A stretch of 33,034 bases of DNA from Candidatus Rifleibacteriota bacterium (GTDB lineage Bacteria > Riflebacteria > Ozemobacteria > Ozemobacterales > Ozemobacteraceae): contig JAKQOH010000215.1 in the NCBI GenBank assembly GCA_029565415.1, positions 1 to 33,034 of the forward strand. Direction: 5' to 3'. A model generated the notes under the pieces. The model did not search any database, was not told the origin of the DNA, and saw only the letters and a program-made list of their open reading frames with translations. Below, piece by piece: positions 8,155-28,814 of this stretch. The position numbers and the translations under genes are program-made. Position 1 is the stretch's first letter; each line of letters starts with the position of its first letter.

Positions 8155-9357
8155 ATGAAAGCAGCGAAGGCCCTGAAATCCGCAACGACCGTGAAGAAAT
8201 CCGTGCCGGCGGCCGCGAAGGCGAAAAAGCCGGCGAAAAGCCCCGCCAGAAAGGCTGCCCGGAATCCGTATCTTGCCGGCACCCGGATCGACCCGCGTCC
8301 CGCCGCCCGTGATCTGAAGGCCGCCGATCTGATCGACAACCTGTTCCTCTCCTACAACGCCGGCCGGCTGCGCGAGGCGTGCCAGTTGTATGCCCGCAAG
8401 ATGCTGACGAACGACGTCACGATCGGCATGAGCCTCGCCGGGGCCCTGACCCCGGCGGGCCTGGGCCAGTCGGCGATCGTGCCCCTCATCGAGGCCGGGT
8501 TCGTCGACTGGATCATCGCGACGGGAGCGAACCTGTATCACGACACGCATTTCGGCATCGGCGAGGAGCTGTATGCCGGTTCGCCGTTCTTCAGCGACAT
8601 CGACCTGCGCGACAAAGGCGTCGTGCGCATCTACGACGTGGTGTTCGATTATCACGTGCTGCTCAACACCGACGCGTTCTTCCGCGAGATCATGCGGTCC
8701 GAGGCGTTCCAGCGGCCGATGGGCACCGCGCATTTCCACCACCTGGTCGGCAGGTTCATCCATGAGCGCGAGAAGGCCCTCGGCCTGAAGGGCGTGAGCA
8801 TCCTGTCGGCCGCCTACCGTGCCGGCGTGCCGGTGTACACGAGCAGCCCGGGCGACAGCTCGATCGGCATGAACATCGCCGCCCTCGCTCTCGAAGGCGG
8901 CAAGCTGGTTCTCGATCCCAACGTCGACGTCAACGAGACGGCGGCGATCGTGCTCGACGCGAAGCGGTCGGTCGGCAAGAGCGCCGTGTTCATCTGCGGC
9001 GGCGGCTCCCCGAAGAACTTCATGCTCCAGACCGAGCCCCAGATCCAGGAAGTGCTCGGCATCAAGGAAGAGGGCCACGACTACTTCATCCAGTTCACCG
9101 ATGCCCGGCCGGATACCGGCGGCCTCTCCGGGGCGACCCCCTCCGAAGCCGTGAGCTGGGGGAAGGTGCGGCCTGACAGCCTGCCCGACACGGTCGTCTG
9201 CTATCTCGACTCGACCGTCGCCCTGCCCCTGATCTCGACGTATGCCCTGAGCCGGGTGAAGGCCCGCAAGCAGAAGCGGCTGTATGACAAGCTCCCGAAG
9301 CTGATGGAAAAATTGTCTGCCGAATACAAGGCGATCCGGAAAAAGGGGATCCGCTGA
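8155..9357 (+). CDS. Deoxyhypusine synthase-like protein with lysine/alanine-rich N-terminal tail
   Basis: A 400-residue member of the deoxyhypusine synthase family. Conserved features are the NAD/spermidine-binding segments [10 protein letters not shown] (231-240), the catalytic-lysine motif GGGSPKNF with Lys287 (equivalent to human Lys329) and [16 protein letters not shown] (325-340). In eukaryotes and archaea the enzyme modifies eIF5A; bacteria lack eIF5A, and some bacterial homologues make polyamines such as homospermidine, so an aminobutyl-transfer polyamine role is most likely. Residues 1-37 are almost only Lys, Ala, Pro, Ser and Arg, like histone H1 tails, and are not part of the fold. 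AAGGA about 9 bases before ATG 8155 supports the start. The gene has its own promoter and is followed by a strong hairpin. Confidence 0.88.
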
Positions 9358-10340: not shown

Positions 10341-12407
10341 GTGAATAAAATCGATAAAAATATATCATCGATAACAAAGAAGTCCGGAACGGACGCGGCA
10401 GATGCCGTCGCCCGGCGCGATGCCATGCGTGGGGAAACCGCCACGATCAGAGCCTTCATCGACCAGACCCGCCGGTATGCCGGTGTCCGGACCTGGAGGA
10501 TCGATCTGCCTGCCAGGCACCTGGAGAGCGACGTGCCGGGGGAAACGGAACCGCTCGATGCCTGGATCCATCCCGCCGATCAGGAAGATTTTTTCCGGAA
10601 TGCCTCCCGGCTGACCCGCGAGCGGCCCGGCATGGCCCTCGATATCCGTATCCGGAGCGAAGGTCGGGGCTGGCACCCTTGCCGTTTTCGGGGAACGGCA
10701 ACCCGGTTCACCGTAGAGGGCCGGCCGGCTCTCCTTCTGGGAGTCACCACGGAGAGTCCGAACGCGCGGTGTCAGGAGTATCCTCTGCCGAAAGCCGGGA
10801 GCCTGATCCGGGAGCTTCTCCGGGACACGTTCGTCATCATGTACCGGCTGGATTTTCTCGGGAAGATGTTCGCCTACAAGAGCGCGGCGTTCGACACGTT
10901 CGGGTTCGATGATGAGATATCGACGTTCGACGACCTGGTTCAGTCGAATGCCGGCATGCTCCATCCCGACGAACGCGCAGGCGCCTGCGCTGTCGTGGCC
11001 GGGATGCTGAAAACGCAGGCTGACGTTCCCATCACCCGGCAGTTTCTCTATCGGCGTCGAAACCGGCAGGGCAAATATCGCTGGCTGTATGATTCCCTGA
11101 CGTGCATCCCGGATGGGCATGGAGCCGTTGCTGCCCTGATCGGGACGGCGATCGACATCACCAACATGAAAAAGCGGGAGTTCGAGCTGCGTGCCGCCGA
11201 GGAGAAATACCGGCGGCTCCATCTGCTCAGTCGCGATGTCTTCTGGAGTTCCGGGCTCGACATGAGGTTCAACTACGTCAGCCCGTCGATCGTCGATCTG
11301 CTCGGATACACCCCGGAGGAAACGATCGCCCTGGGGCCCGAGATGACCCTGCTGCCGGACTCGTATCGGGTGGTCGGCGAGCTCATCCACAGATTCGGCG
11401 AACAGGAGCGAGAGAGACGGGAACGGGAGTCACCCGGCACGAGCCTGGAAGGCGGCCTTCTGCGCCCGGAAGACCCCGTTGAGCCGGACCCGACGTTTTG
11501 TTTCGAGTTATGGCAGCGGCACAAAAGCGGCCAAAGCATCCTGACGGAGGTGGTCGCCTCGGTCATCCGCGACGAGGCCGGCAACCTCGTCGGGTTCTGC
11601 GGTGCGACGCGGGACATCACGGAGAATCACCGGATGAAAGAGGCGCTGAAAAAATCCCGTGACGAGCTCGAGCAGGCCGTGCTCGAACGGACGAGCGAGC
11701 TTGCCACCGCGAACGAGCACCTGCAGCAGGAAATCGAACGTCGGCGGCAGGTCGAAGCCGCCCTGTTCGAGATGAGTGAGGCCGAACAGCGTTCGATCGG
11801 CCATGACCTTCACGATGGTCTGTGTCAGCAGCTCGCCGGGATCATGTGTCTTTGTCAGGCGGCCCGCGACCGGCTTCTGGAGATCGGCAGCATCGACGCC
11901 ATCCAGATGGGCCGCATCCAGGATCTGCTTGCAGCGGCACTCAAATACGCGCGGTATATGGCGCGCGGGCTGAGTCCGCTGTTCACCGACGATCACAGTC
12001 TTCGCGCCTCTCTCGAAACCCTGGCCGTCACCTCGTCTGCCATGTTCCGGGTCTCCTGCCGGTTCCTGCCTGCCCACGGCGGGAGAATCAACGATCCAGG
12101 GCAGGCGCTGAACCTGTATCGGATAGCCCGGGAAGCCGTTCTCGGGGCGGTTCTCGACCGGAAGGCCCGGGTGATCGAGATCCGGCTCAGAAGCTCGTCC
12201 CGAAAGGTGCTTCTCGCGATCAGGGACAATGGAAAAGAGCCGGCGGGATCACGGATGGCCGACGATGTGCTTGGGATGATTCCCTATCGTGCGGAGTCGA
12301 TGGAGGGCGTCGTCCGGATGCGGTCTGACGGCGGGCGAGGGACCCTGATCCGCTGTCTGGCCCCTCTTGCCGTCCGGAAGGAGGCTTCCCTTGCCGTCAC
12401 GGAGTGA
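10341..12407 (+). CDS. PAS sensor histidine kinase that keeps the phospho-accepting His but has a degenerate ATPase domain
   Basis: A 688-residue soluble kinase with no membrane segment. Order: about three PAS/PAS-like domains (30-135, 150-280, 290-435, the last ending GATRDITENHRMK), a coiled coil (about 440-480), a HisKA_3 dimerisation domain with IGHDLHDGLCQQL (phospho-acceptor His491), and a C-terminal ATPase-like region. That region is broken: the N-box reads EAVLGAV with Gly602 where Asn is essential, the G1 box is DNGKE instead of DxGxG, and the G2 box is VLGM. It should accept but not make phosphate from ATP, unlike its neighbour. The GTG 10341 start has no good ribosome site; ATG 10425 is an alternative that changes no domain. 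It overlaps the next gene by 17 bases. Confidence 0.88.
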   Translation: MNKIDKNISSITKKSGTDAADAVARRDAMRGETATIRAFIDQTRRYAGVRTWRIDLPARHLESDVPGETEPLDAWIHPADQEDFFRNASRLTRERPGMALDIRIRSEGRGWHPCRFRGTATRFTVEGRPALLLGVTTESPNARCQEYPLPKAGSLIRELLRDTFVIMYRLDFLGKMFAYKSAAFDTFGFDDEISTFDDLVQSNAGMLHPDERAGACAVVAGMLKTQADVPITRQFLYRRRNRQGKYRWLYDSLTCIPDGHGAVAALIGTAIDITNMKKREFELRAAEEKYRRLHLLSRDVFWSSGLDMRFNYVSPSIVDLLGYTPEETIALGPEMTLLPDSYRVVGELIHRFGEQERERRERESPGTSLEGGLLRPEDPVEPDPTFCFELWQRHKSGQSILTEVVASVIRDEAGNLVGFCGATRDITENHRMKEALKKSRDELEQAVLERTSELATANEHLQQEIERRRQVEAALFEMSEAEQRSIGHDLHDGLCQQLAGIMCLCQAARDRLLEIGSIDAIQMGRIQDLLAAALKYARYMARGLSPLFTDDHSLRASLETLAVTSSAMFRVSCRFLPAHGGRINDPGQALNLYRIAREAVLGAVLDRKARVIEIRLRSSSRKVLLAIRDNGKEPAGSRMADDVLGMIPYRAESMEGVVRMRSDGGRGTLIRCLAPLAVRKEASLAVTE

Positions 12408-14139
12408 ATCGGAAACGACCCCGACCCGACGGGCGACGGTGCTCGACGAACTCGAGACAGCCCGGGCAGAACTCGACGAGGCCCGGGAATACGCGGCACT
12501 GGTGACGGCCGCAACGGGGTTCGAGCCCGGCCGAAGCTTCCTGATCGAGTTTGTCGAAGCGAATGAAGAGGCCGACCGGTTCCGAGAACTGCTCGACCAC
12601 ACCGCCATCCTGCTGTATCGCTTCGACCTCCGGACGGGGCGATACAGCTACTGCAATCGTCGGGGGCTCGCCTATCTGCCGATCCTCCGCAGGGCTGAAA
12701 AGAAAAAAGCCCTTGATATAATGGAAGAAAATATATATCCTGAAGACGTGGATCGTGTGCGCTCCGTGATCCTGGAGGGCATACGGCGCGCAACCTCAGC
12801 CCCCTGCCGGGACGAGATCGAATACCGGAGACGATGCGGTGACGGTCAGTATTGCTGGATCTACGAAATGATAACCTTCCTGCCGGGGGAGAGCGGTGGT
12901 GCCAGCGCCCTGATCGGGGCGGCCCTGGACATGACGGAGGAACGCGCCGCCCAGGCCTTGTTGCGCGAGAACGAACGCAAACACCGGTTGCTCACCGAGT
13001 TGTGTGCCGACCTGATCTGGATCGTCGGGACGGATGAGCGGCTGACCTACGTGAATTCAGCTGTCGAAACGGTATTCGGATATACCCCTGAAGAGTTCGG
13101 CCGGCTGACGATCACGGATCTGGCCGTGCCGGGCAGTATCGCGGACGACAGACACGCGTTTTCGCGGTATATCGAGATCGAGACGGCTTCCCCGGGGGCG
13201 ATCGGGACGCAGAGGCTGGTCAATGAGTATCGCCGGCGGGACGGCTCGCGGTTCTGGGGGGAGCTGATCTTTTCGGCTTACCGCGATGAACACGGTCGCC
13301 TTCTGGGCTTGTGCGGTTCGCTGCGTGACATCTCCGAGCGGCGGAAGGTCGAACAGGAGCTGAAACAGGCGCACCGGGAGCTCGAACAGCGTGTCCGGGA
13401 GCGCACCACCGAGCTCGAGGCGATCAATGCCCAACTGCATGCCGAAGTCGAGCGGCGGCGCCGGATCGAACGATTCATGCTGCATGTTCCCGAGAAGGAG
13501 CGGGCTGCCATCGGCAAGGAGCTCAATGACGGCCTTTGCCAGGAGCTGGTCGGCATCCGGTTTCTCTGCGATGCCGTGCGGGAGAACCTGCTTGGCCAGG
13601 ATGACATGGTCACCGAAGAAGTGGGCAGCATTCGTGACCTTCTGAACGATGCCGTGAAACAGGCGAAAGCGATGGCCCGAGGGCTTGATCCGATCCTGAC
13701 CGATCCGCAGGGCCTGGCTTCGTCGCTCGAGACGCTTGTCGAGACGACCTCGACGCTGTTCAGCGTTTCGTGCCGGTTTATGGCCGGTCCGGGAGGTGAG
13801 GTCGAGGATCCGGATCTGGCGCTGAATTTTTACCGTATCGCCCAGGAGGCGATCCACAACGCAATCCGGCATGGAAAGGCGCGGAATATCGAGCTTACCC
13901 TGGCGGGCGTGGCCGGTGAAGTCCGACTCACTGTCGCCGATGACGGCTGCGGGCTTGCTGCCAATCCGTCCAATCCCGGCGGGCTTGGCATGAAGATCAT
14001 GGAATACCGGATGCGCGCGATGAGCGGAACGCTCCAGTTCCGGGAACGGGACGGGGGGGGGACGATCGTCGCCTGCGCAGCACCGATGAGGAAGGGGCGC
14101 CGGCATCGGGCCAGTCACCGAAGGGAGAAACCAACATGA
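12391..14139 (+). CDS. PAS histidine-kinase paralogue with intact ATPase domain but Asn in place of the phospho-accepting His
   Basis: A 582-residue soluble paralogue of the preceding kinase: two PAS domains (about 55-195 and 200-330, ending GSLRDISERRKVEQ), coiled coil, HisKA_3 domain and HATPase_c domain. The dimerisation motif reads IGKELNDGLCQEL; codon AAT at 13525-13527 puts Asn379 at the phospho-acceptor position. The ATPase domain is complete: N-box QEAIHNAIRHG (Asn490), G1 DDGCG and G2 GLGM. The Asp and Gln of the adjacent DxxxQ phosphatase motif remain. So it can bind ATP but not phosphorylate itself. TTG 12391 is chosen because AAGGAGG lies 6 bases upstream. The stop overlaps the regulator's ATG by 4 bases, so the three genes are translationally coupled. 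Confidence 0.9.
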   Translation: MPSRSESETTPTRRATVLDELETARAELDEAREYAALVTAATGFEPGRSFLIEFVEANEEADRFRELLDHTAILLYRFDLRTGRYSYCNRRGLAYLPILRRAEKKKALDIMEENIYPEDVDRVRSVILEGIRRATSAPCRDEIEYRRRCGDGQYCWIYEMITFLPGESGGASALIGAALDMTEERAAQALLRENERKHRLLTELCADLIWIVGTDERLTYVNSAVETVFGYTPEEFGRLTITDLAVPGSIADDRHAFSRYIEIETASPGAIGTQRLVNEYRRRDGSRFWGELIFSAYRDEHGRLLGLCGSLRDISERRKVEQELKQAHRELEQRVRERTTELEAINAQLHAEVERRRRIERFMLHVPEKERAAIGKELNDGLCQELVGIRFLCDAVRENLLGQDDMVTEEVGSIRDLLNDAVKQAKAMARGLDPILTDPQGLASSLETLVETTSTLFSVSCRFMAGPGGEVEDPDLALNFYRIAQEAIHNAIRHGKARNIELTLAGVAGEVRLTVADDGCGLAANPSNPGGLGMKIMEYRMRAMSGTLQFRERDGGGTIVACAAPMRKGRRHRASHRREKPT

Positions 14140-14786
14140 CGGAACGTTCGGCCATACGTGTGTTCGTCATCGACGACCACGGCGTGATGCGGATGGGCTT
14201 GCGGCAGTTGCTGACGCGCCGAGGATTCGAAGTGTGCGGGGAAGCCGAGACCGCCGCCGATGCCCTGGTGCGGATCGGGGCCGTGCGCCCCGACGTGGCG
14301 CTGGTGGACCTTTCCCTCGGTCGTGACGACGGAATGGCGCTTCTCGAGAAGATTCGCCAGGCGGTGCCTGATGTGGGGCTCATCGTCTACTCGATGCATG
14401 ATGATCCGCTCTATGTCCGGCGTGCCATCACGGCCGGTGCTCGCGGCTACGTCACGAAAGACGATGCTTCGAGCCATCTGGTCGACGCGATCCGGGCCGT
14501 CCATGCCGGCCAGCAGTTCTACAGCGAATCCGTCGCCGGCCGGCTCGTCCAGTCGATTGCGACGGATGCCGTGACCGAGCCGCCGCCTGCGCTTTCGAAG
14601 CGGGAGCAGGATATCTATAATCTGCTCGGGGACGGGTTTTCGATCAGCGAGATCGCCGAAATGCTGCACGTGAGCCGCAAAACGGTGGAAACGCATTGCG
14701 GCAACCTGAAGCAGAAGCTGCGGGTCAAATCGATGCGCGAGCTTTCACGCACCGCGATCCAGCACCGGACCGCGAACCGGAGGTAG
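14136..14786 (+). CDS. NarL/FixJ-type response regulator
   Basis: A 216-residue DNA-binding response regulator. The receiver domain (about 7-122) has the acidic pair DD (13-14), phospho-acceptor Asp58 in VALVDLS and the conserved Lys108 in GYVTKDD. The LuxR-type helix-turn-helix (about 148-210) includes LSKREQDIYNLL and VSRKTVETHCGNLKQKL. It overlaps the second kinase by ATGA and is preceded by GGGAGA. HisKA_3 kinases normally partner exactly this regulator class, so it is the expected phosphate sink of the kinase pair. Targets are unknown; the operon's own upstream inverted repeat, the cyclase operon or both are possible. Confidence 0.95.
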   Translation: MTERSAIRVFVIDDHGVMRMGLRQLLTRRGFEVCGEAETAADALVRIGAVRPDVALVDLSLGRDDGMALLEKIRQAVPDVGLIVYSMHDDPLYVRRAITAGARGYVTKDDASSHLVDAIRAVHAGQQFYSESVAGRLVQSIATDAVTEPPPALSKREQDIYNLLGDGFSISEIAEMLHVSRKTVETHCGNLKQKLRVKSMRELSRTAIQHRTANRR

Positions 14787-15044: not shown

Positions 15045-17990
15045 ATGGAAACCACATCTCCGGCCGGTCAGAAGCCGCCGGAAGGCGGGGAACGGAGAGG
15101 CGGAGCCGCCCTGCGCGGGCTGCTCGGTCCGCTCCTGCTGTGCCTCGCCGTCATCTGCCTGGCCCGCCTCGTGGCCTGGCAGAATGCCCGCATCGCCGAG
15201 ATGGCCGCCGAGAACCGCTGGATGGAGCGGGCGAGGGGCGAGATCGAGCGGTTCCGGGGCAGCTGGACCTATGCCCTCCAGGTCGAGGCCGGCATGGACC
15301 GGCTTCGGCGAAGCGTCGCCGCGGTGCTGAACAATCGGAACCGCGCATCCATCTCGGGCAGCGAGTTTTCCCGGCTGTTCCGGCAGGCGATTCCGGCCTC
15401 CCACCGTCCATCGGGCACCCAGGTGTTCGCCTTTCGGCTGAACTCCACGGGGATGCCTGAAACGTTGAGCGGACCGGGCCTCGAGACGGCCATGGGACGC
15501 ATGGTCGGCGGGCTGCTGGCCGCCGCACTGGATCCCGACGCGGTTCCGGCCTCCCGCCGCGCCTCCCTCGACCGGCAGTCGGCGGGCCTGTTCGGTGAGC
15601 TGATCACGCTCGATGTCGTCGCCCGCCTGCGGCGTGGCAAGCTGACCGGCGCACGGTGGCGCGGGGGCGACTCGCTCATGCTCTGGAACGCCGTGGAGAC
15701 GAAGAGCGAAACGCTCTTCTGGATCGCCCTGTTTCCCCGGAATGCCGTGCTCACCTCCCGCCCCGTCGAAACGGCATTGCGGAAAGCTGCTGCCCGGGGA
15801 AGAGGCCGTCTCTGGCCGGCTCTCGCACCACTGATTCCCGAGAACGGTGCCGTCCGGCTGCGGACAGCCTCGGATACCGTGCCGGCGTGGCCCCTGCGGC
15901 GGCTTCGTGCGGCTATCGCCGGCTGCCGGTCACGCAACGATCTTGCGCCGGCCGGAACGATCGTCAGGGGGCTTCCCGGTCTCTGGGCTATCCGTGATAT
16001 CGTCGCCAGTAATCTGCCCTTCGAGCTGTGGCTCGTCGGCCCCATTCCCCCTGAAGCCCGCCGGGACGTGGTTCCCCCCTGGGAACAGGCTCTGCGAGCC
16101 GGTCTGTTCGGTCTCATGGCCCTGCTGACGGCGCGCTGCATGATGAATCCCGTCGGCAGCGACATGTCGCTGCGTGTCTGGTTCGCCGGCTTCGTCGCCC
16201 TCGTCGGGATTCTGCCCCTCGGCCTCGTCTGGCTGCTCGCCTCCTGGTGGATCACCATGAACGTCGAGCGGCGGGTCGGGGAGAGCGAGCGTCAGGCCGA
16301 AGAGCGGTTCATGCGCCTCGATCTCATGAGCGCCCGTGAGGTCGACCGGTTTGCCGGCGCCTGCTCGGCGGCTCTTGTCGACCGGCCGCTGCTCGAGCGG
16401 CTGACACGCGTGCCTGAGGGCGAGGCGGGCCAGACGGCGATCGAGGCGGAACACCGGCGCCTCGCGGCGTCCGGACTGCCGGCCGAGTATATGCAGGTAT
16501 TCCGGCCCGGCCGCGATGCCTTCGTGTCCACCCTTCCCGGGGTGAGCGACCGGCCGAATCGCGGCCTGTTCCAGCTCCAGACCGGTATGGTGTCGATGGC
16601 CGTAGTCTATAACGATAAAAATAATAGTGAAAAGTACATAAAAGCCCTTTCCGGCCGTGACCGGATGGCGTTCGAAGGGATCCGTTCGGCCTTCTCGAGC
16701 GGCTTTGGTGCACATTACTTCGACGTGCGCCGGCGGGGCCACCTGTTCCGCGGCTCCGACGAACCGCTTTTCATGACCTACGATTTCCTTGCCGACGCGT
16801 CGGGCTTCGGCCTGGGCGTGGTCTTTGCAACACGCGCCCGGCGCCACTTCGCGTCCCTGCTGCGAGAGGAAGTCGCCCGCCTGCGCCTCATGATGCCCGG
16901 CGCCCGGATCGCCTGGGGCATGTCCTTGCCCGGCGGTTTCGAGCCGATCGGCGAACATGCCGGCACCCTCTCGCCCGGCATGACGCGCGTGCTGCACGAT
17001 GCGGCGCGCGCCGGGACGATGCAGGTGCTTCGCACGGGCGAACGCCGCTACATCGCCCGGCCCTGCCAGCGGATGCCGGGATTCATCGTCGGCATGGAGT
17101 TTTCGACCGCGGGAATCCGCCGCGAAGCTGCCGCCAATCTGCTTCTGGTCGAGGGGGTTCTTGCGGTGATCGTCTCGATCCTCTTCCTGATCGGTCTCGG
17201 CATCGGCCGCCATCTGCTGCAGCCGCTCTCGCGGCTCGAGACCGGCCTGCGCCGCGCCGCTGCCGGCGACCTCGACAGTAGGGTCGGCATCGACCGGCCC
17301 GACGAGATCGGCGAGGTGACCCGGGCCTTCGACCGCATGATCGACGGTCTCCGCGAGCGCCGCGACCTCGGCCGGTTCGTCTCCGCCACCCTTGAACATC
17401 AGCTCCAGGCCGGCGAAGTGACCGGTGCGCCCCAGGTGGTCGACGGGGTTGTGCTGGTGTCGGATCTGCGCAGTTTCACCACGATTTCCGAATCATACCC
17501 GGTCGAAGAGGTCGTCGAGATGCTGAACCGCCACCTCGATGCGATGGCCGGGGCCATTCACGCCGCCGGGGGCAAGATCGACCGGTTCATCGGGGACGCG
17601 GTCATTGCGGCCTTCTACGGGGAACGGCCGGAGGAAAATGCCGCCCGGGCCCTGGATGCCGCCGTGGCGATGCTGCGCGCCCACCGCCGGCTCCGGGATG
17701 AGCGGCGGGCCCGGGGTCTGTTCGAATACGGCATGGGGGCCGGTCTCGACGCGGGGAACCTCCTCGTCGGCTCGTTCGGAACGGCGGAGCGCATGGAGCG
17801 CGCCGTGCTCGGCGAGCCGCGCGACGTGGCCGAGCGCCTGGAAGCCGCTTCCAAAAAGGGACGGCATACCGCGATCATGCTCTCAGACGCGATGCTTGCC
17901 CTGCTCGGCGGGCCATCCCCCGTGTTCGAACGCATTCCGGCGGCCGAAGCCTGGGAGCTGACCGAGCTTCCCCCGGAGGCCGGCGCATGA
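15045..17990 (+). CDS. Membrane class III nucleotide cyclase paralogue A (metal-binding half intact)
   Basis: A 981-residue membrane protein: TM1 (about 24-46), an extracytoplasmic domain of about 300 residues, TM2 and TM3 (about 346-366 and 380-404), a second extracytoplasmic domain (about 405-695), TM4 (about 697-720), a HAMP linker (about 722-775) and a class III adenylate/guanylate cyclase domain (about 800-960). Both metal-binding aspartates are present: Asp807 in VLVSDLRSF and Asp851 in RFIGDAV. The residues that normally bind the base and stabilise the transition state are lost: Arg847 for Lys, Ala920 for Thr/Asp and Asp927 for Asn; Arg931 remains. A homodimer should therefore be inactive. 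ATG 15045 has GGGAG about 10 bases upstream; the end overlaps paralogue B by 4 bases. The two sensor domains match no family I recognise. Confidence 0.9.
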   Translation: METTSPAGQKPPEGGERRGGAALRGLLGPLLLCLAVICLARLVAWQNARIAEMAAENRWMERARGEIERFRGSWTYALQVEAGMDRLRRSVAAVLNNRNRASISGSEFSRLFRQAIPASHRPSGTQVFAFRLNSTGMPETLSGPGLETAMGRMVGGLLAAALDPDAVPASRRASLDRQSAGLFGELITLDVVARLRRGKLTGARWRGGDSLMLWNAVETKSETLFWIALFPRNAVLTSRPVETALRKAAARGRGRLWPALAPLIPENGAVRLRTASDTVPAWPLRRLRAAIAGCRSRNDLAPAGTIVRGLPGLWAIRDIVASNLPFELWLVGPIPPEARRDVVPPWEQALRAGLFGLMALLTARCMMNPVGSDMSLRVWFAGFVALVGILPLGLVWLLASWWITMNVERRVGESERQAEERFMRLDLMSAREVDRFAGACSAALVDRPLLERLTRVPEGEAGQTAIEAEHRRLAASGLPAEYMQVFRPGRDAFVSTLPGVSDRPNRGLFQLQTGMVSMAVVYNDKNNSEKYIKALSGRDRMAFEGIRSAFSSGFGAHYFDVRRRGHLFRGSDEPLFMTYDFLADASGFGLGVVFATRARRHFASLLREEVARLRLMMPGARIAWGMSLPGGFEPIGEHAGTLSPGMTRVLHDAARAGTMQVLRTGERRYIARPCQRMPGFIVGMEFSTAGIRREAAANLLLVEGVLAVIVSILFLIGLGIGRHLLQPLSRLETGLRRAAAGDLDSRVGIDRPDEIGEVTRAFDRMIDGLRERRDLGRFVSATLEHQLQAGEVTGAPQVVDGVVLVSDLRSFTTISESYPVEEVVEMLNRHLDAMAGAIHAAGGKIDRFIGDAVIAAFYGERPEENAARALDAAVAMLRAHRRLRDERRARGLFEYGMGAGLDAGNLLVGSFGTAERMERAVLGEPRDVAERLEAASKKGRHTAIMLSDAMLALLGGPSPVFERIPAAEAWELTELPPEAGA

Positions 17991-20944
17991 AAAGCTCCCG
18001 CTGGCTGACGGCGTTCTGGCTGCTCGTGCTCATCCTGCCCCTGCTCGTGTTCGCGATCGAGCGCGGCGAGCGGTTCTCCCAGGCCCATGCCGCGGCCCGG
18101 GCCGCCGCGCGGGTGCGGGCACGCGATCTGATGCTCGAAGCCCAGTCCCTGGCCCTGCCCCGGGACAGCATCGCCCACCTCCTGCGCAGCTTTCAACAGC
18201 AGGCCGAACGGATCGCGCGAAACACCCGCGACGCGTCAGAGGCCCGCCGCCGCATCCATCGGGCTTACCGGAACGGCCCCGGCCGCTGGCTTCCCGCCCA
18301 TGCGCTGCTGTGGCGGCCCCGACCGGCGCTCGATCTGGAGCGCGGCCTCCGGATGGAGATGAGCGCCGGCCGCCGATTCCCCGAAAATGCCGCCGATCTG
18401 TTCGTCGACTTCCGATGGGCCGGAAAGATCGACGAATCCCGGCTTGAACGCCTGCTCGCCTCGATGATCGACTGCCCCGCCACCCTGGATTACCAGGACG
18501 GGAACAAGAACGGCAAGCTGCAGACCTTCGTCTCCCGATCGGGAATCCATGGTCTGTACTGGCGCGTTCCGTTCCAGAGCGGTCTGATTGCCTGGCTCGA
18601 TCTGACGGGCCTGGATCCCCACCTCGGCATGCGCTACGCCGCGGCGCGATTCCGCGAAGCCGGCTGCGGGCTGATGTTCACCGATGAACGGGGCGTTCCG
18701 GTCGTTGCCGGGGGTGATGGAAAGCGCCAGGGAAGGCAGTTGGCAGCCCGGCTGCTTGCCCTGGGAAACGGCAGCTTCCCGGCCGTGGCCCGGGTTGCGG
18801 GGCGGCTGGCCATGACCGGTCCGCTTCCCTCCGGAACCCCCGGCCGGGTGATCGTGACCGTGCCCTGGCCCCCGGAACCGAACATCAGGAAAGATTCCGG
18901 AACGGCCGTCCCCCTTGCCGCCGCCGCAGTGCTCGGTGCCCTGCTGCTGGGTCTTGCCCACCTCGCCACGCGCCGGGCAACGGTCGGCTGGATGCTGCTT
19001 GGGGCCTGCCTCGGCCTGGCGATCGTGCCCGCCGGCGCCGCCTGGGTCCTGGTGCGTCGCGCCGTCACCGAATACGGCCAGGTCGAACTGCGAACCACCG
19101 TCAACAAGCTGCACGACGATCTGACGGGCTTCGACAACGGCGGAATGCGCCTGCACGCAAGCATCGTCAGCGGCCTGGTGCGCATCGCCAGAAAGCCGGA
19201 AACCTATCGGCTTCTCGAGTCCCGCCCGACCTCCAGGATGCGCTCCGCGCTTCGTCCCATTCTCGGGGCGAGCGCCCTCACCGGCCCCTATCTGCGGGAG
19301 GCCTCGCCCGAACTGCTCATCGGCGTCGCCCCGGATGACCAGATCGGATTGATCTCCTACAAGCGCATGGATGAAGAAACGATGCCGGCAGAAGATCGGC
19401 CGATTCTCGAAGTCTTCGGCTCTCTCGCCCGCAAAGTCCGCGACGGCATCACCCGCATCGGGAAGAAAACGAAGGAAGCGGCGGTCCCTCAGGACTCGGA
19501 AGCAAGCAAAATCCGCGAAAGCATGCGGGCCGATATCCTCTTCGACATCTTCCAGGGCATCATCGGGATCGATGCCATGATCGCCCAGGTGACCTTCCCC
19601 GAGGATCTGCTCGAAGTGAAAACCTCGTTCATCCGCGTTTTCCTGATGGAAATGCGCGTGTTCCGGGAAGGGAAATTCCCGACCGAATGGCTCCTCTCCT
19701 GGATGTGGGACGACTCGCGCGAGCTTTCGCACGTCGATCGCGTGTTCCGGGAACGATTCGGGAGCCACTCCGGCTCGGACCCCATCAGCGAACGGCCCTT
19801 CGCTGCCGACACACCTGATGCTCCCCCCGAAGCGCCGGAGATCTGGATCGTGGGCGGCATGGCCGAGCTGATGTTCCGCGAATGGGTCGCCCCTGCCGTT
19901 CCCACCCCGCGCACCCTCATGCGCGCCGTCGAACGGGCCCGGAACACCGGCGTCCTTCAGACCGGCCGCGACCTCTCGGCGCCCGGCCGCCCCGTGTTCG
20001 AGGCGTTTCCCGGAAGCAGTCTTTCCCGATTCGTCATCGCCGGACAGGTCGAAACGAACTCGATCGAGCGCCGGGCTGCGCGGTTCCAGCTCGGCGGAAA
20101 CATCCTTGCCGTGAGCCTCGTCACGATCGCCCTCGCGCTTGCCTGGTATGCGCGCGGTCGTCTGCTGAAGCCTCTGGAACGGTTACGCCTCTCGATGATG
20201 GAGGTCGCCGCCGGCAACTTCGATGTGCGAATTCCGCTCGACCGGTCCGACGAGTTCGGAACCCTGGCCGCGGCCTTCAACTCGATGGCCCGCGCCCTGC
20301 AGGAAGCGGCGATCCTGGGCCGCTTCGTATCCGGTTCGGTGCGCCGGGCCGTGCGTGACCGCCGAACCGACGAGAGCGGCCGCGGCGAGCGCCGGGAGGT
20401 CACCGTCCTGTTCTCCTGCCTCCTGCATTTCGAGCAGTTCTGCCAGGGCAAATCGCCCGACCAGGTGTTCGCTGCGCTCGGCAGCCATCTCGGGGCGCTC
20501 AATGCCGAACTGGCCGCATACCCGGGCGGCGCCGAGATTGACAAGGTGATCGGGGACAAGATTCTCGTCGTGTTCGATCACGAGCGGATGGGCGGAGCCA
20601 AAGCCACTGCTGAGGCCGTTCTCGCGATCGTCCGGGGCGTGCGCCACCGCCTCGCCCAGGCGGGCCTCGAGGCGGCCATGGGCATCAATACGGGGCTCGT
20701 CATCTCCGGCATCCTCGGCGCCACTTCGGTCCGTCTCGATCACACCGTCATCGGCGACCCCGTGAACCTCGCATCCCGCCTCGCCCTGCTTGCCCACATG
20801 ACCGAGGGGACCCGAACCGTCGTGTCCGGCGCCTTCCTGGCCGCCTGCGCAACACCCCCGGCTGCCGAAAAACTGCCATTCCGCAAAGTGAAAGGCAAAA
20901 CCCAGGAAGTCGAAGCCTACCTTCTGCGGGATCCGAGTGTGTGA
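17987..20944 (+). CDS. Membrane class III nucleotide cyclase paralogue B (substrate-binding half intact)
   Basis: A 985-residue protein with the same plan as paralogue A: TM1 (about 9-25), TM2/TM3 (about 307-327 and 332-355), TM4 (about 702-722), HAMP, cyclase domain (about 800-965). The first metal-binding Asp is replaced by Cys811 (VLFSCLLHF; TGC at 20417-20419), while the second, Asp857 in KVIGDKI, stays. All residues supplied by the opposite subunit are intact: Lys853, Thr920 in DHTVIGD, Asn927 and Arg931 in VNLASR. Lys/Thr is the class IIIb adenylate-specific pair. Alone it lacks one metal ligand; with A it would complete one active site. Asn927 and A's Asp927 fall at the same residue number, showing colinear paralogues. 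ATGA overlap gives coupled translation in equal amounts. Confidence 0.9.
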   Translation: MKSSRWLTAFWLLVLILPLLVFAIERGERFSQAHAAARAAARVRARDLMLEAQSLALPRDSIAHLLRSFQQQAERIARNTRDASEARRRIHRAYRNGPGRWLPAHALLWRPRPALDLERGLRMEMSAGRRFPENAADLFVDFRWAGKIDESRLERLLASMIDCPATLDYQDGNKNGKLQTFVSRSGIHGLYWRVPFQSGLIAWLDLTGLDPHLGMRYAAARFREAGCGLMFTDERGVPVVAGGDGKRQGRQLAARLLALGNGSFPAVARVAGRLAMTGPLPSGTPGRVIVTVPWPPEPNIRKDSGTAVPLAAAAVLGALLLGLAHLATRRATVGWMLLGACLGLAIVPAGAAWVLVRRAVTEYGQVELRTTVNKLHDDLTGFDNGGMRLHASIVSGLVRIARKPETYRLLESRPTSRMRSALRPILGASALTGPYLREASPELLIGVAPDDQIGLISYKRMDEETMPAEDRPILEVFGSLARKVRDGITRIGKKTKEAAVPQDSEASKIRESMRADILFDIFQGIIGIDAMIAQVTFPEDLLEVKTSFIRVFLMEMRVFREGKFPTEWLLSWMWDDSRELSHVDRVFRERFGSHSGSDPISERPFAADTPDAPPEAPEIWIVGGMAELMFREWVAPAVPTPRTLMRAVERARNTGVLQTGRDLSAPGRPVFEAFPGSSLSRFVIAGQVETNSIERRAARFQLGGNILAVSLVTIALALAWYARGRLLKPLERLRLSMMEVAAGNFDVRIPLDRSDEFGTLAAAFNSMARALQEAAILGRFVSGSVRRAVRDRRTDESGRGERREVTVLFSCLLHFEQFCQGKSPDQVFAALGSHLGALNAELAAYPGGAEIDKVIGDKILVVFDHERMGGAKATAEAVLAIVRGVRHRLAQAGLEAAMGINTGLVISGILGATSVRLDHTVIGDPVNLASRLALLAHMTEGTRTVVSGAFLAACATPPAAEKLPFRKVKGKTQEVEAYLLRDPSV

Positions 20945-21039: not shown

Positions 21040-21328
21040 CAGTTCATTGAAAACAATTTTCGGGCCCCTCAGTTTACTGCTGCACAACTCGTTGCAGAAC
21101 AATCGCTGCGTAAGTAACCCGACCGTCTGCTGCCGTTCACTCCTGATGTCATCGCATGTCATGCATCGTTCTTGAACCGTCGCGCACCGTCGCACCACCC
21201 ACCACCCCCTGTCATACCGGGCCCGGAAATCTGTTCCTGTGGGTCGCAGCACTAACTACGATTCAAGTATCCTCTCAAAAGATCCTCTCACTTTCGCCCC
21301 GGCTCTTTCAAGCCGGGGTCTTTTTTTT
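21040..21328 (+). ncRNA. Candidate sigma-54-dependent small RNA (or terminated leader)
   Basis: The sigma-54 promoter and the strong terminator at 21297-21328 bound a transcript of about 285 nt. I find no credible protein in it: the open frames lack ribosome sites and family-like sequence. Its base composition is lower in GC than the neighbours, with a G-free C-rich stretch (about 21191-21208) that could stay single-stranded and pair with purine-rich ribosome sites. The alternative is a leader whose terminator regulates the propeller gene at 21384. The start position is inferred from the promoter; no known sRNA family is recognised. Confidence 0.5.
21297..21328 (+). terminator. Intrinsic terminator
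   Basis: CCCCGGCT (21297-21304) pairs with AGCCGGGG (21311-21318) around a CTTTCA loop, followed by TC and eight T residues (21321-21328). A textbook Rho-independent terminator with no protein gene directly upstream, which is the main reason to suspect a non-coding transcript. Confidence 0.92.
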
Positions 21329-21340
21329 CCCGGATTGGCA

Positions 21341-21346
21341 TATACT
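21341..21346 (+). promoter_or_regulatory. Candidate -10 box for the propeller gene
   Basis: TATACT lies just past the terminator and would start RNA near 21353, giving a leader of about 30 bases with AGAAGG before GTG 21384. No clear -35 box. Confidence 0.35.
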
Positions 21347-21383
21347 GTTCACTCGAATGAGCTTCGCAGAGAAGGTTTTTCCA

Positions 21384-22586
21384 GTGAGCAAAAATCGCAC
21401 GCTTTTTCATCGGCTCTTGGGGACCGTCCTCCTGATTACATGCCTGGGCTTCCAGGCGGCCGCCTGGCAACGAGAGGAAATCCCGGGGATGCCCTCGCCC
21501 TTTGCGAGAACCCTTGGCCTCGATGCGCGAAACGGCATCTGGGCTTCCTTCATGAGGGAACAAGGCCTCGATACCTGGGGGATTGGCCGCATCCATCCTT
21601 CGCCGGCGCTGTTCATCCCCATCCGGGCTCTCGGGGCCACGAGGGTTTTTGCCCTGTTGCCCTCTGGAGACAGGGTTGCCGTGGCGACGGACGACGGAGT
21701 TCGGACGGTCAGCAGCGATGGCACGGTGGCCACGCATTCAGTCGGATACCCCCTCACGCATCTGGCGATCGCCACCGGGGGCGCTTTCCTGGCTGCCGGC
21801 ATTGACGGGAAGGGCGGCATCAATCTTCTCCGTCTTGCGCCGGGCTGCCTGTCGGAGCGCTGGCACCTTGCCATGCCCCGAGGCGGGCGGTTGCGGGAGC
21901 TGCTGCGCTTGTTCGCTCGCCCTGACGGAACGGCTGTCCTGGTCACGGCCGGCGAAATCCTCGTCTTTTCGGGAAGCGCCCTGCATATCATGGACCTGAA
22001 GAACTCCCCGCTGGCATCCCCCTCCCGAGGCCGATCTTCCGAGCGTCGAGTGCCTCCGGTCTGGATCTACGATGCTGCGATGACACCCGATGGTGCCGTG
22101 CATCTGACAGGATTTTCCCGGCAGCTGGTGCGATGGAATGGCGGAACCATGAAGGTGATCGCCCATGGGCACTTCAGGAGTCTCATCCCTGGTTCCCGTG
22201 CCGGATATCTGTGGGCAACGGATTTCGATGGCGGGCTCTGGAAAGGGGATGACGCCGGCTTCGGACAGGTCGCTGCTTGCCCCGAAGGACAGATCGAGGC
22301 GATATGCCCTGGTGCTTCCGAGGGCATCTGGCTTGAGCATGCTCCCGCCTCTGGCCCTCACCGGCTCGTTCCTGTGCCATCCAGCGCCACGAAAGGCGTC
22401 CCGGAGGAACAATGGCACGCCTGGATCCGGGCTGGTGTGGCTCTGGATGTTCGCCCCGGACTGGTGTCGCCGGGCATTCTCTCGTCCATTCCTATGAGCG
22501 ATGGGGGATTGTGCCTGGCCACGAACGCCGGAATCTGGCGCATCAGGGAAACTCCTGATGCCCTCCCGAAACCTCCGGCCCCGTGA
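21384..22586 (+). CDS. Secreted beta-propeller-like protein of unknown function
   Basis: A 400-residue protein with an N-terminal signal peptide (basic SKNRTLFHR, then a hydrophobic core ending LGFQAAAW; likely cleavage after AAA). The mature part repeats short units of the type D-G-x-x-x-V/A-A-T with Gly/Asp turns, e.g. SGDRVAVATDDGVRTV, AGYLWATDFDGGLWK and DGGLCLATNAGIWRI, which suggests a beta-propeller like those in sensor ectodomains. I recognise no family and no catalytic motif. GTG 21384 is preferred for AGAAGG about 9 bases upstream and an ideal signal peptide; ATG 21357 is an alternative. A frame open further upstream crosses the terminator and is not coding. It stands alone between two terminators. 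Confidence 0.7.
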   Translation: MSKNRTLFHRLLGTVLLITCLGFQAAAWQREEIPGMPSPFARTLGLDARNGIWASFMREQGLDTWGIGRIHPSPALFIPIRALGATRVFALLPSGDRVAVATDDGVRTVSSDGTVATHSVGYPLTHLAIATGGAFLAAGIDGKGGINLLRLAPGCLSERWHLAMPRGGRLRELLRLFARPDGTAVLVTAGEILVFSGSALHIMDLKNSPLASPSRGRSSERRVPPVWIYDAAMTPDGAVHLTGFSRQLVRWNGGTMKVIAHGHFRSLIPGSRAGYLWATDFDGGLWKGDDAGFGQVAACPEGQIEAICPGASEGIWLEHAPASGPHRLVPVPSSATKGVPEEQWHAWIRAGVALDVRPGLVSPGILSSIPMSDGGLCLATNAGIWRIRETPDALPKPPAP

Positions 22587-22841: not shown

Positions 22842-22998
22842 GCAAAATATGCCTGTGTTGTAAGGGCCGGAGATCTGTGCGATGCTGGAGACACACGCAG
22901 AAGAGCCATGTGAGAGGATTTATCGGCTGAGGCCGCCCATGGCATGCAAGCTGCAATGCATCGAAACCGAAACACTTCGGAACCTCAGGAGGAACCTC

Positions 22999-24405
22999 AT
23001 GTCCCGGATCGATCGAATCATCGTGTTGTCGTTGGGGATGGCTCTGGTCTCGGCCGCTGGCATGGCCGCCGAACCGTTATCGGTCGGAGATGCCGTCAGA
23101 AAAGCTTTGGAACACAGCCCTTCTCTCCAGGCAAGCCGTGAAGGGGAGACGGTGGCCCGGGAAAAGATCGGCGAAGCCCGGTCGATGCGCGGCGTTCGCG
23201 TCACGGCCGGTATTTCCGACACGCGCCTGAACAGCCCGATGATGGCGTTCGGAGCCAGGCTCGACCAGGGGCGTATTGCGATGAGTGATTTCCAGCCCGA
23301 CCGGCTGAACGATCCCGACGCCGTCAACAACCTCAAGATCGGTGCACAGGTCGTCCTGCCGGTGTATCTCGGCGGCATGGATGCACACGCGGTGAGCGCG
23401 GCCCGTTCCGGAAAAACGGCCGCCGGTCACGACACGGCCCATGCCTCGGAAGAAGTGATCTTCCAGGCGATCGATGCCTATCTGGGAGTCCTTCTGGCGC
23501 GGGAAAGCGTGTCCGTTGCCGAAAAAGCCTGTGATGCCTCGCTCGAGAGCCTGCGGAATGCCGAAGCCGCCGTTGCCGCCCAGCGTGCCGTCGCCTCGGA
23601 TCTCCTCCAGGCCCGGGTGCACCATTCGCAGAACGAGGAAACCCTCCTGCGGATGAAGAATCAGCACGCCCTGGCCCTCGAGGCTCTGGCGACCGTGATG
23701 GGAGTCGCTTCCGCCACTGATTTCGATCTGACCATGCCGCTGCTGAACCAGGAGTGCACCTCCTGCGGCGATGCCCCGGCCCATTTGCTGGAAACGGCTC
23801 TGCGCCAGCGGCCGGACTATCTCGCCCTCCTCGAGCGCGTGAATGCGCTCGAACGAAGCGCGAAGATGCATGACGGGGCGGTCCGCCCCCACGTGGCGAT
23901 CGGCGCCGCGGCGGAACAGAACCGGGACGGCTTCGGCGGCGACAGCCATGGCAACAACATGGTGTTCGCCCGCGTCGACTGGAACATCGCCGACGGCGGT
24001 GAGGCGAAGCACAAGGCCGCCGGGGCCCGGGCCCAGGCGAACCAGATGCGCCGCATGGCCGAGGCGCTGAAAGACGGCATTCATCTCCAGATCCGCGAAG
24101 CCATCACCGGCCTCAACAATGCCCTCGAACGCATCCGCGTCAGCCGGGAGGCGATCGATCACAGCGACGAGTCCCTTCGCATCCTTCGTGACCGGTATGC
24201 TGCCGGCCTCGCGATCATGAGTGATGTGCTCGGGGCCGAGACCGGCCTGCTCTCTCACCGCATGAACCACGTCAAGGCGCTCTACGACTATTCGATCAGC
24301 CGGGCCCGCCTGAAAATGGCCCTCGGCGAACTGACGCTCGAACGCTGCGTTCTCCTGCATGACCAGGCTTTGACTCCCGTTGCCACCGGCTCGTCCGGCA
24401 TGTGA
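22999..24405 (+). CDS. TolC family outer membrane efflux protein
   Basis: A 468-residue outer membrane channel component. The signal peptide (about 1-23, hydrophobic IIVLSLGMALVSAAG, cleavage near AMAAEP-type site) is followed by the family start EPLSVGDAVRKALEHSPSLQA and two repeats of long amphipathic helices rich in Ala, Glu and Arg (e.g. EAITGLNNALERIRVSREA) that form the periplasmic tunnel. It would trimerise and dock to the adaptor encoded next. ATG 22999 is preceded by AGGAGG; an in-frame extension to 22882 would bury the signal peptide. First gene of a tripartite efflux operon in the order channel, adaptor, pump. Substrate unknown. Confidence 0.92.
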   Translation: MSRIDRIIVLSLGMALVSAAGMAAEPLSVGDAVRKALEHSPSLQASREGETVAREKIGEARSMRGVRVTAGISDTRLNSPMMAFGARLDQGRIAMSDFQPDRLNDPDAVNNLKIGAQVVLPVYLGGMDAHAVSAARSGKTAAGHDTAHASEEVIFQAIDAYLGVLLARESVSVAEKACDASLESLRNAEAAVAAQRAVASDLLQARVHHSQNEETLLRMKNQHALALEALATVMGVASATDFDLTMPLLNQECTSCGDAPAHLLETALRQRPDYLALLERVNALERSAKMHDGAVRPHVAIGAAAEQNRDGFGGDSHGNNMVFARVDWNIADGGEAKHKAAGARAQANQMRRMAEALKDGIHLQIREAITGLNNALERIRVSREAIDHSDESLRILRDRYAAGLAIMSDVLGAETGLLSHRMNHVKALYDYSISRARLKMALGELTLERCVLLHDQALTPVATGSSGM

Positions 24406-24443
24406 CAGCTCTGAACCGAGACATTTCGGAGGCCAAAATAAAT

Positions 24444-25577
24444 ATGAATAGAAATATATTATCTGGTGTTGTAATTTCGCTCGCCCTTTTCGCTGGTTGT
24501 CCGATTTCGGCCCAGGAATTCTGGCAGACGGCCGGAATGACCGAGCGGAGCCTCACCTACGAAGCGGTCGGGAACATCCAGCCGAAGATCGTCACGACCC
24601 TCTCGAGCAAGGTCATGGGGAACGTGCTCGAGGTGCTCAAGCGTGAGGGGGACACCGTCTCGGCCGGGGAAGTCGTGGTGAAAATCGATGCGAGGGATGT
24701 GGCATCGGATCTGGCCGGCGCCCGGGCGGGACTCTCCGAAGCGGTGGCCATGAAGAGCGAGATCGATCGCGGGCTTCAGGCTGCCGGAGCTCAGAAACAG
24801 CAGGCCGAGGCCGGTCTCAAGCTGGCCGAGGCTTCATATCAGCGGATCAGGGAGCTGTTCGAGAAGAAATCCGTGAGTCGGCAGGAGTTCGACCAGGCCG
24901 AGGCGGCCTACTCCTCGGCCCGGGCCCAGGTGGCCGGGGCGCAGGCGCAGATCGATGCCCTCGAGGCGAAAAAGGCCACCGTGAGCGCCCGCATGAGTCA
25001 GGCCCAGGCCGGAATCAGCAAGGTTGAAACGATCCGGAATCTGGCCGAAGTTGCCTCCCCCTTCGGCGGTCGCGTCACGGCCCGGCGCATCGAGCCCGGC
25101 ATGCTTGCGGCTCCCGGCGTGCCCCTGCTGACGATCGAGGACTCGTCGCAACTCCGGTTCGAAGCCATGGTGCCGGAGCGGTTCATTGCCTCGATCACCG
25201 AGGGCCAGCAGGTCCAGGTCACGATCGACGCCCTCGGCAGCCGCTCGTTCTCCGGCATCGTTGCCGAGCTTCTTCCCGCTGCCGACCCGCTCTCCCACAC
25301 CTTTCTCGTGAAAATTGCCCTGACGGTCCAGCCCGGGATGAAAAGCGGCATGTACGCCCGCGGCTCCTTCGGCATCGGCTCCGAATCGGTTCTGGTGGTG
25401 CCTTCCGAGGCGGTCGAGACGCGAGGCCAGCTTGACGGCGTCTGGGTCGAGCGCGAAGGGAAGCCCGTCTTCCGGCTCATCCGCACGGGGCGCGCGCTTC
25501 CCGAGGGCATCGAGATCCTCGCGGGACTCCGGCCCGGCGAAAAGTTTCTGTCGAAGCCCCCCGCCGAAGGGAAGTGA
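24444..25577 (+). CDS. RND efflux periplasmic adaptor (membrane fusion protein)
   Basis: A 377-residue HlyD/MFP-type adaptor that links the inner membrane pump to the TolC channel. A lipoyl-like segment (VGNIQPKIVTTLSSKVMGNVLEV) is followed by a long coiled-coil hairpin (about 90-195, rich in Ala/Gln/Glu), the second lipoyl half (ASPFGGRVTARRIEPG) and the beta-barrel. The N-terminus has a signal sequence ending LFAGC at Cys19, a near-lipobox with Phe at -3, so it may be a lipoprotein. ATG 24444 with GGAGG upstream is chosen; an ATG at 24402 overlapping the tolC-like stop is the alternative. The first codons are AT-rich, unlike the rest of the gene. Confidence 0.92.
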   Translation: MNRNILSGVVISLALFAGCPISAQEFWQTAGMTERSLTYEAVGNIQPKIVTTLSSKVMGNVLEVLKREGDTVSAGEVVVKIDARDVASDLAGARAGLSEAVAMKSEIDRGLQAAGAQKQQAEAGLKLAEASYQRIRELFEKKSVSRQEFDQAEAAYSSARAQVAGAQAQIDALEAKKATVSARMSQAQAGISKVETIRNLAEVASPFGGRVTARRIEPGMLAAPGVPLLTIEDSSQLRFEAMVPERFIASITEGQQVQVTIDALGSRSFSGIVAELLPAADPLSHTFLVKIALTVQPGMKSGMYARGSFGIGSESVLVVPSEAVETRGQLDGVWVEREGKPVFRLIRTGRALPEGIEILAGLRPGEKFLSKPPAEGK

Positions 25578-25583
25578 TCATCC

Positions 25584-28814
<3,231 letters not shown>

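Follow-up and report, generated by a model that had tools for sequence, protein, structure and literature searches.

Two adjacent membrane cyclase genes of a Riflebacteria contig as probable halves of one adenylyl cyclase, with split and fused relatives

Do two neighbouring genes for membrane-bound class III nucleotide cyclases, each lacking part of the catalytic residue set, encode two enzymes or the two parts of one? The question is raised by contig JAKQOH010000215.1 of Candidatus Rifleibacteriota bacterium (GenBank assembly GCA_029565415.1), which we analysed as a single stretch of 33,034 nucleotides (the window). The genes, here called A and B, follow each other on the forward strand, and a preliminary description had proposed that A acts as the C1 and B as the C2 half of a mammalian-type cyclase. 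Our results support this proposal: A and B are very probably two subunits of one membrane adenylyl cyclase with one active site, in which two membrane sensors are joined. This reading of the sequences follows from the catalytic residues, from their conservation in 8 A-family and 10 B-family proteins, from the same reciprocal split in 62 of 65 neighbouring pairs in four genomes, and from the invariance of each half within its clade, the mirrored partner trees and the fused forms.

In class III cyclases the site is built between two chains, two metal aspartates coming from one and, from the other, Lys and Thr/Asp for the base and Asn and Arg for the transition state; the mammalian C1/C2 arrangement is described as one-sided, with one live site and one pseudo-site (PMC4174876). 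The same source gives the catalytic residues of Rv1625c of M. tuberculosis as Asp256, Lys296, Asp300, Asp365, Asn372 and Arg376. We use the corresponding order (Asp1, Lys, Asp2, Thr, Asn, Arg) throughout. The genes, their junction and the key positions are as follows.

15045..17990, + strand: gene A (981 amino acids, aa), membrane HAMP class III cyclase subunit, putative metal-donor (C1-like) half
17987..20944, + strand: gene B (985 aa), membrane HAMP class III cyclase subunit, putative substrate and transition-state-donor (C2-like) half
17987..17990, + strand: ATGA start/stop overlap at the A/B junction, 4 bases
17463..17465, + strand: A Asp807, first metal aspartate, kept (8/8 close proteins, 85/85 in the metal-half clade)
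17583..17585, + strand: A Arg847 where the substrate-specifying Lys is expected
17595..17597, + strand: A Asp851, second metal aspartate, kept
17802..17837, + strand: A Ala920 (instead of Thr/Asp) and Asp927 (instead of Asn); Arg931 retained
20417..20419, + strand: B Cys811, replacing the first metal Asp
20543..20545, + strand: B Lys853, substrate-specifying Lys, kept
20555..20557, + strand: B Asp857, second metal position, remains Asp
20744..20779, + strand: B Thr920, Asn927 and Arg931 (substrate and transition-state residues), all kept

Read directly, A gives DRDADR (D807, R847, D851, A920, D927, R931) and B gives CKDTNR (C811, K853, D857, T920, N927, R931). This bears out what the preliminary description had seen, namely both metal aspartates in A next to Arg847, Ala920 and Asp927, and Cys811 in B next to an intact Lys853, Thr920, Asn927 and Arg931. 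The residue columns were set by alignment to PDB chains of bacterial light-regulated cyclases, by a hidden Markov model (HMM) and by residue spacing. The six key positions of A and of B share the same six HMM columns, and the functional residues align where they are expected; the description had named their alignment elsewhere as a ground for abandoning the idea. Between neighbouring residues Rv1625c has steps of 44 (Asp-Asp), 4 (Lys-Asp), 7 (base residue-Asn) and 4 (Asn-Arg). A is identical in these four, and B has 46 (counted from the Asp1 position), 4, 7 and 4. The long middle step is not constant (65 residues in Rv1625c, against 69 for A and 63 for B).

A canonical homodimeric bacterial adenylyl cyclase has the six residues in one chain. 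The full set is present in neither A nor B, and annotation of the genes as two ordinary adenylyl cyclases was rejected on that ground. What the two show together is the C1/C2 type: metal aspartates in one partner, Lys, Asn and Arg in the other, with reciprocal loss. The base-binding partner, B, also holds the Lys and Thr/Asp purine pocket of an adenylyl cyclase (Lys853 and Thr920), from which we infer adenosine triphosphate (ATP) as the likely substrate.

The split is conserved in close relatives. A protein search returned 7 relatives of A (P0001-P0007, 65-69% identity) and 9 of B (P0012-P0020, 57-90% identity), one more B match being the window's own protein; with the window proteins included this makes 8 A-family and 10 B-family sequences. 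All eight A proteins have both metal aspartates and Arg at position 847. At position 920 seven have Ala (Ser in P0006), at 927 seven have Asp (Glu in P0004), and Arg931 is present in six (lost in P0004 with C and in P0007 with H). CKDTNR is found in 10/10 close B proteins, so that the losses are conserved in both partners, a check which the preliminary description had suggested. Four A/B couples are on database contigs of matching size (19648, 14267, 13200 and 8965) and thus probably on the same contigs. Where source names are given, they are Candidatus Ozemobacteraceae, bacterium ADurb.Bin374, Candidatus Ozemobacter sibiricus and Candidatus Riflebacteria. Scanning a species collection with A yielded one locus, L001 (JAGOCE010000097.1, Ca. 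Ozemobacteraceae), in genome G001.

The B-family profile, which also picks up plain HAMP and cyclase domains, has matches in 39/39 genomes searched of the phylum of G001; at most 21 candidates were scored in nearly every genome, and figures from this search hold among the matches listed. Four genomes were inventoried through their PF00211 matches at E <= 0.001 (53 in G016, 61 in G023, 43 in G011, 64 in G025). This gave 137 regions, in which a purpose-built HMM located 223 cyclase domains. Same-strand neighbours less than 4.6 kb apart were taken as a pair, and clusters were divided into consecutive pairs (the intact first domain of one three-domain cluster was entered as solitary). Of 65 neighbouring pairs, 62 consist of one metal-only and one substrate-only domain (29 tandem pairs with the metal half first, 10 tandem pairs with the substrate half first, and 23 fused pairs with the metal half first). 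The genomes hold 10, 17, 17 and 18 complementary pairs. With shuffled class labels the mean was 30.7 and the maximum 46 in 20,000 shuffles. Under a stricter rule, which demands loss of Asn or Arg in the metal partner and absence of Asp from position 1 of the substrate partner, 60/65 pairs are complementary (one of them shows a gap at Asp1).

Intact domains (DKDTNR or DKDDNR) make up 86/93 of the solitary domains and occupy 1 of 130 paired positions (Fisher's exact p = 3.8e-52, kinship between domains ignored). The seven non-intact solitary domains comprise one metal-only small protein, four with neither half and two partial ones. No pair with both members intact, another finding that had been said to speak against the proposal, was seen among the 65 pairs or in 20 further regions. 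These regions form a second sample, picked for close neighbours in nine further genomes and hence a selection of such places. Eighteen of them are complementary, with Asp1 of the substrate partner readable in 11 and its stretch unalignable in 7; in 12 of the 18 substrate partners the second aspartate is lost as well, which makes them more C2-like than B of the window.

The fragmentary genome G001 holds many further cyclase domains, several of them tandem neighbours. Its eight neighbouring pairs include five that are fully read and complementary, two with a cut metal partner that fits, and one intact domain beside a small protein; the 26 unpaired domains are intact (14), metal-only (6), substrate-only (4), neither (1) or partial (1). 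Overall, at least one complementary pair was found in 12 of the 14 genomes read for residues (G002, G032 and G039 are represented by one region each). A catalytic-domain search (7,992 candidates scored) added metal-half types P0023-P0028, of which P0024 is from Ozemobacter sibiricus and P0026 from Riflebacteria by source name. Among 23 more distant matches (P0029-P0051) Asn and Arg are both kept in 20, the others being P0034, P0043 and P0049.

Evidence independent of the labels comes from a tree of 285 domains, computed without the six key columns (LG+G4, quick run). One branch separates off the metal-half domains (85 rows; Shimodaira-Hasegawa-like approximate likelihood ratio test, SH-aLRT, 92), and the labelled rows require 3 label changes against 126.7 for shuffled labels (the substrate half needs two). 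Clade counts were taken on the branch side best fitting each type. In the metal-half clade Asp1 and Asp2 are Asp in 85/85, while 10 members retain Asn, 16 retain Arg and 35 retain Lys, with 16 different residues in the Asn column and 17 in the Arg column. In the substrate-half clade Lys, Thr, Asn and Arg are each present in 82/83 (the exception is one spurious match), with Asp1 left in 2/83 and Asp2 in 54/83. In each clade the residues required of it for a one-site heterodimer are invariant and the remaining ones free to vary, which is our key result.

A mixture-model tree of 88 rows required 4 label changes. Given that the trees need 3-4 changes only, many independent origins of reciprocal loss were dropped as an explanation, and the high pair count represents maintenance since few origins. 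A single origin of the split is possible; a few origins are possible as well, in view of three H-type G001 domains of the substrate half that are placed apart from the main clade. The trees of the two partner sets mirror one another: over 72 pairs (62 from the four genomes, 5 from G001, the window pair and the four database couples) the distance correlation is r = 0.72, against a maximum of 0.13 in 2,000 permutations, and 50/72 pairs have the same nearest neighbour in both partners. Among tandem partners, the second open frame starts ahead of the stop of the first gene in 42 of 43 pairs (of the 43, 24 allow a 4-base overlap, 2 a 1-base overlap, 16 overlap otherwise and 1 has a gap).

In five genomes, 24 complementary pairs are found in single open frames of 1,993-2,424 codons (stop to stop, thus upper bounds), always with the metal half first: 6 in G011, 7 in G016, 5 each in G023 and G025, and 1 in G001 (a 2,065-codon frame). 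Two more, L278 and L280, were read in the second sample. Loci with such frames are given below.

Fused two-cyclase frames, metal half first: L019 (335-6526), L086, L087, L091, L094, L095, L098, L112, L113, L118
Fused two-cyclase frames, metal half first (continued): L146-L149, L151, L152, L178, L200, L203, L278, L280

Hydropathy shows 5-11 peaks per fused frame (exactly eight in 10/24), typically as four peaks, cyclase, four peaks, cyclase. L148 (901-6882), for example, has peaks at residues 7, 361, 391 and 698, a cyclase at 799-983, peaks at 1017, 1318, 1358 and 1693, and a second cyclase at 1801-1989. Pfam detects two cyclase stretches in 5/5 scanned frames and two HAMP stretches in 3/5. Frames of similar length with cyclase matches, their residues not read, are present in G006, G012, G013, G015, G017, G018, G020, G021 and G028. 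Fused and split forms are separated by 3 changes in each partner set, compatible both with one fusion followed by later splits and with several fusions. A 2022 perspective (PMC9552081) portrays bacterial class III cyclases as monomeric proteins that homodimerize and, in the passage concerned, calls fused dimeric species unknown in bacteria. Among the matches listed for the open-licence literature (titles and abstract openings) there was no paper on a bacterial heterodimeric or fused class III cyclase.

The proposed mechanism can be stated in terms of these residues. A and B would meet in the membrane, with their cyclase domains paired head to tail in the usual wreath as in mammalian C1/C2. A would supply the metal-binding Asp807 and Asp851, and B the purine-specifying Lys853 and Thr920 together with the transition-state residues Asn927 and Arg931, giving one complete ATP site per A-B dimer. 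The mirror site (Arg847, Ala920 and Asp927 of A with Cys811 of B) is predicted to be dead and could be free to turn regulatory; in mammals the forskolin site is described as the regulatory counterpart of such a dead site (PMC4174876, PMC8815786). A-A and B-B homodimers would each be without an essential half. Each subunit having its own membrane sensor and HAMP domain, two signals would probably be joined before synthesis of cyclic AMP (cAMP). For the family, an old duplication was probably accompanied by reciprocal loss, with fusion into single chains in some lines.

Several observations weigh against this interpretation. Retention of Asp857 keeps weak B-B activity compatible with the sequence. 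Exceptions among the 65 pairs number three by the looser rule and five by the stricter: G011:C11 is one domain matched twice and G016:C23 an intact domain beside a 196-residue frame, in G023:C2 and G025:C4 the substrate partner keeps Asp1 and has Glu at Asp2, and in the fused frame G025:C14 the metal partner reads DKDSNR, with Asn and Arg kept and Ser for Thr. The second sample has two misfits: L295 joins an intact domain with one in which Gly takes the place of Asp2, and in L297 a metal-only domain lies about 4 kb from an intact one. Ten half-type domains of G001 have no partner in view; their frames reach within 1.5 kb of a contig end, so the partners may be cut off. The three substrate-type G001 domains mentioned above (all HKDTNR) lie outside the main substrate clade, related pairs are non-independent events given the 3-4 label changes, and the mirror-tree signal could be due to linkage alone. 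Furthermore, the AlphaFold2 model of B is poor and was not used: mean predicted local distance difference test (pLDDT) 44.4, predicted template modelling score (pTM) 0.34, from a 10-row alignment.

It might be argued that A, B or both are catalytically dead relics or pseudo-enzymes, such as sensors or scaffolds, and that their losses reflect decay after duplication. Each chain alone does lack canonical residues, 7/93 solitary domains are not intact, and at least five family members among the matches listed have an internal stop, so that some copies may indeed be decaying. Decay would however be expected in both halves of both partners, whereas the metal aspartates are kept in 85/85 members of one clade and Lys, Thr, Asn and Arg in 82/83 each of the other, and we regard this explanation as very improbable. 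Even less credence is given to two active homodimers of altered chemistry, for example with another nucleotide for the Arg847/Asp927 of A or one-metal catalysis for B. The constancy of Arg847 in the 8 close A proteins and the Asp857 of B are in its favour, but the variability of the Asn and Arg columns in the metal-half clade is unlike a newly fixed chemistry, and neighbours are nearly always one of each type (62/65). That the pattern stems from a single assembly or from faulty residue alignment can practically be dismissed: the named sources are metagenome-assembled genomes and G001 is fragmentary, but the pattern recurs in 12/14 genomes read and in database proteins, with spacing as in Rv1625c, and this candidate was rejected. 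Another possibility, a variant of the A/B heterodimer rather than its opposite, is a sensor network in which any metal half joins any substrate half of the cell. The many pairs per genome (10-18) would permit this, but overlapping frames in 42/43 tandem pairs, fusion in 24 cases and mirrored trees favour cognate pairing, and we consider free exchange of partners rather unlikely, if clearly less so than the explanations above.

The remaining parts of A and B agree with a pair of membrane cyclases.

15120..17195, + strand: N-terminal membrane sensor part of A (hydropathy, AlphaFold2 model of A)
17202..17357, + strand: HAMP domain of A, residues 720-771 (Pfam)
17433..17972, + strand: cyclase domain of A, about residues 797-976
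18002..20146, + strand: N-terminal membrane sensor part of B (hydropathy; sidedness predicted)
20153..20305, + strand: HAMP domain of B, residues 723-773 (Pfam)
20381..20926, + strand: cyclase domain of B, about residues 799-980

Pfam scores HAMP and Guanylate_cyc above the cut-off in both proteins (PF00211: 24.6 bits for A and 44.6 for B, cut-off 21.9), which places both among the class III nucleotide cyclases; the catalytic fold of that class was recognised as well. Their profiles can be aligned over the last ~330 positions (641-966 of A with 643-973 of B, hhalign probability 99.3). Hydropathy peaks of A are at residues 26-44, 380-398 and 699-717, and AlphaFold2 predicts an additional helix at 345-367; A thus probably has about four membrane spans around two domains that are probably extracytoplasmic, the sidedness being a prediction. 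B has clear peaks at 6-24, 306-324, 338-356 and 702-720 and a weak one at 517-535. The AlphaFold2 model of A is fair (mean pLDDT 78.4, pTM 0.49), and in a fold search with it the matches listed were taken up by the cyclase domain. The genes meet at ...GGCGCATGAAAAGC..., and the tandem arrangement, near-equal length (981 versus 985 aa) and 4-base ATGA overlap are as the preliminary description had them. Its suggestion that the overlap fits equal synthesis of the partners has weak support: ATGA-type overlaps often couple translation (PMC6728339), and 24/43 tandem pairs allow one.

Gene order around the pair is partly shared with G001.

10341..14786, + strand: two PAS histidine kinases (10341-12407 and 12367-14139) and a LuxR-type response regulator (14136-14786) upstream (Pfam)
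21156..22586, + strand: downstream neighbour without Pfam match, also downstream of B in G001

G001 has histidine kinase, histidine kinase, response regulator and A in window order and, on another contig, the tail of A, B and the downstream open reading frame (ORF), again in window order. Identity to the window is 71% for the response regulator, 67% for A, 46% and 50% for the kinases and 39% for the downstream ORF. The kinases and the response regulator may control the cyclase pair. Further downstream (22882-28814) are genes for a TolC-type outer membrane protein, an HlyD-type adaptor and an AcrB-type pump, and at 8155-9357 the window encodes a deoxyhypusine synthase family protein (PF01916), which is unusual in bacteria.

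Some further observations concern the wider family. In L287-L294 (G035, G036), L278, L279, L281, L285 and L286 the substrate halves have lost Asp2 or an alignable Asp1 stretch and their neighbours keep both aspartates, representing splits beyond that of the window. Small cyclase-like frames of 196-198 codons, with both aspartates kept and Lys and Arg lost, were found at G016:C23:55840 (L085), G001:C495:5526 (L043) and G011:C14:69042 (L160); two of the three adjoin an intact cyclase, and a role as soluble partner or inhibitor is possible. L296 (G002:C238) has shorter cyclase frames in tandem (717 and 744 codons), which read KKDTNR and DKDSSR; reciprocal loss may have arisen separately here. P0034, a metagenome protein (639 aa, DRDLQK), is a metal-half-like cyclase without Pfam HAMP match and might belong to another heterodimer lineage. 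Each of five genomes has 14-19 matches to the cyclic nucleotide monophosphate (cNMP)-binding domain, among which cAMP receptors are possible.

How does the pair compare with known cyclases? Bacterial class III cyclases such as CyaB, CyaC and OaPAC homodimerize, each chain carrying all six residues and the two sites being equivalent, and the solitary relatives (86/93) likewise carry the full set, unlike A and B. Class IIIa cyclases have Asp at the purine-specifying position; B has Thr there, as does 82/83 of the substrate clade, and two six-span membrane domains in one chain were not found either. A/B would work like a mammalian adenylyl cyclase, but its HAMP domains, its roughly four spans in each half and its Thr as purine residue do not agree with descent from class IIIa, as judged from spans and purine residue (the trees included no eukaryotic sequences). 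The likeness lies in the division of labour described for mammalian transmembrane enzymes, with metal aspartates in C1, substrate and transition-state residues in C2, and one active site plus one pseudo-site (PMC4174876), and for the fused relatives also in a single frame in which a membrane part followed by a cyclase occurs twice. In contrast to mammals, A and B are bacterial and encoded by two separate genes, with about four spans per half instead of six, large outside domains, HAMP and no known G-protein input. Class III heterodimers of separate genes are described for the chytrid NeoR/RGC rhodopsin cyclases (PMC8815786) and for soluble guanylyl cyclase alpha/beta (PMC3591389); the NeoR partners RGC1 and RGC2 are eukaryotic and reported to keep all known catalytic residues (PMC8815786), and soluble guanylyl cyclase is eukaryotic and makes cyclic GMP. 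Like the proposed A/B enzyme, Rv1625c is a membrane class III cyclase with its site formed between two chains, but it is described as a single-gene homodimer with both halves present, and as the proposed progenitor type of the mammalian cyclases (PMC9552081, PMC12505454, PMC4174876). Massive duplication of membrane cyclases in one lineage is shared with the transmembrane cyclase expansion of Trichomonas.

Beyond the single locus of the window, the pair is one of many, fused versions included, and the family supplies fused dimeric frames, the form called unknown in bacteria by the perspective mentioned above (PMC9552081). Because fused frames, unfused pairs and intact solitary relatives occur in one family, they allow a direct comparison of the stages that lead from a homodimer through a heterodimer to a fused chain. 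The family also offers bacterial models for two membrane inputs meeting at one cyclase site and for the role of a dead mirror site, and may yield obligately two-part cyclases for engineering. Overall, we consider it likely that heterodimeric adenylyl cyclases have undergone a radiation of their own in the Ozemobacteria/Riflebacteria group, with 10-18 overlapping or fused pairs per inventoried genome. The pseudoheterodimer would then have been invented separately from that of animals, with unfused, order-swapped and fused stages still extant, and would work as a coincidence detector for two sensors, its dead site being allosteric.

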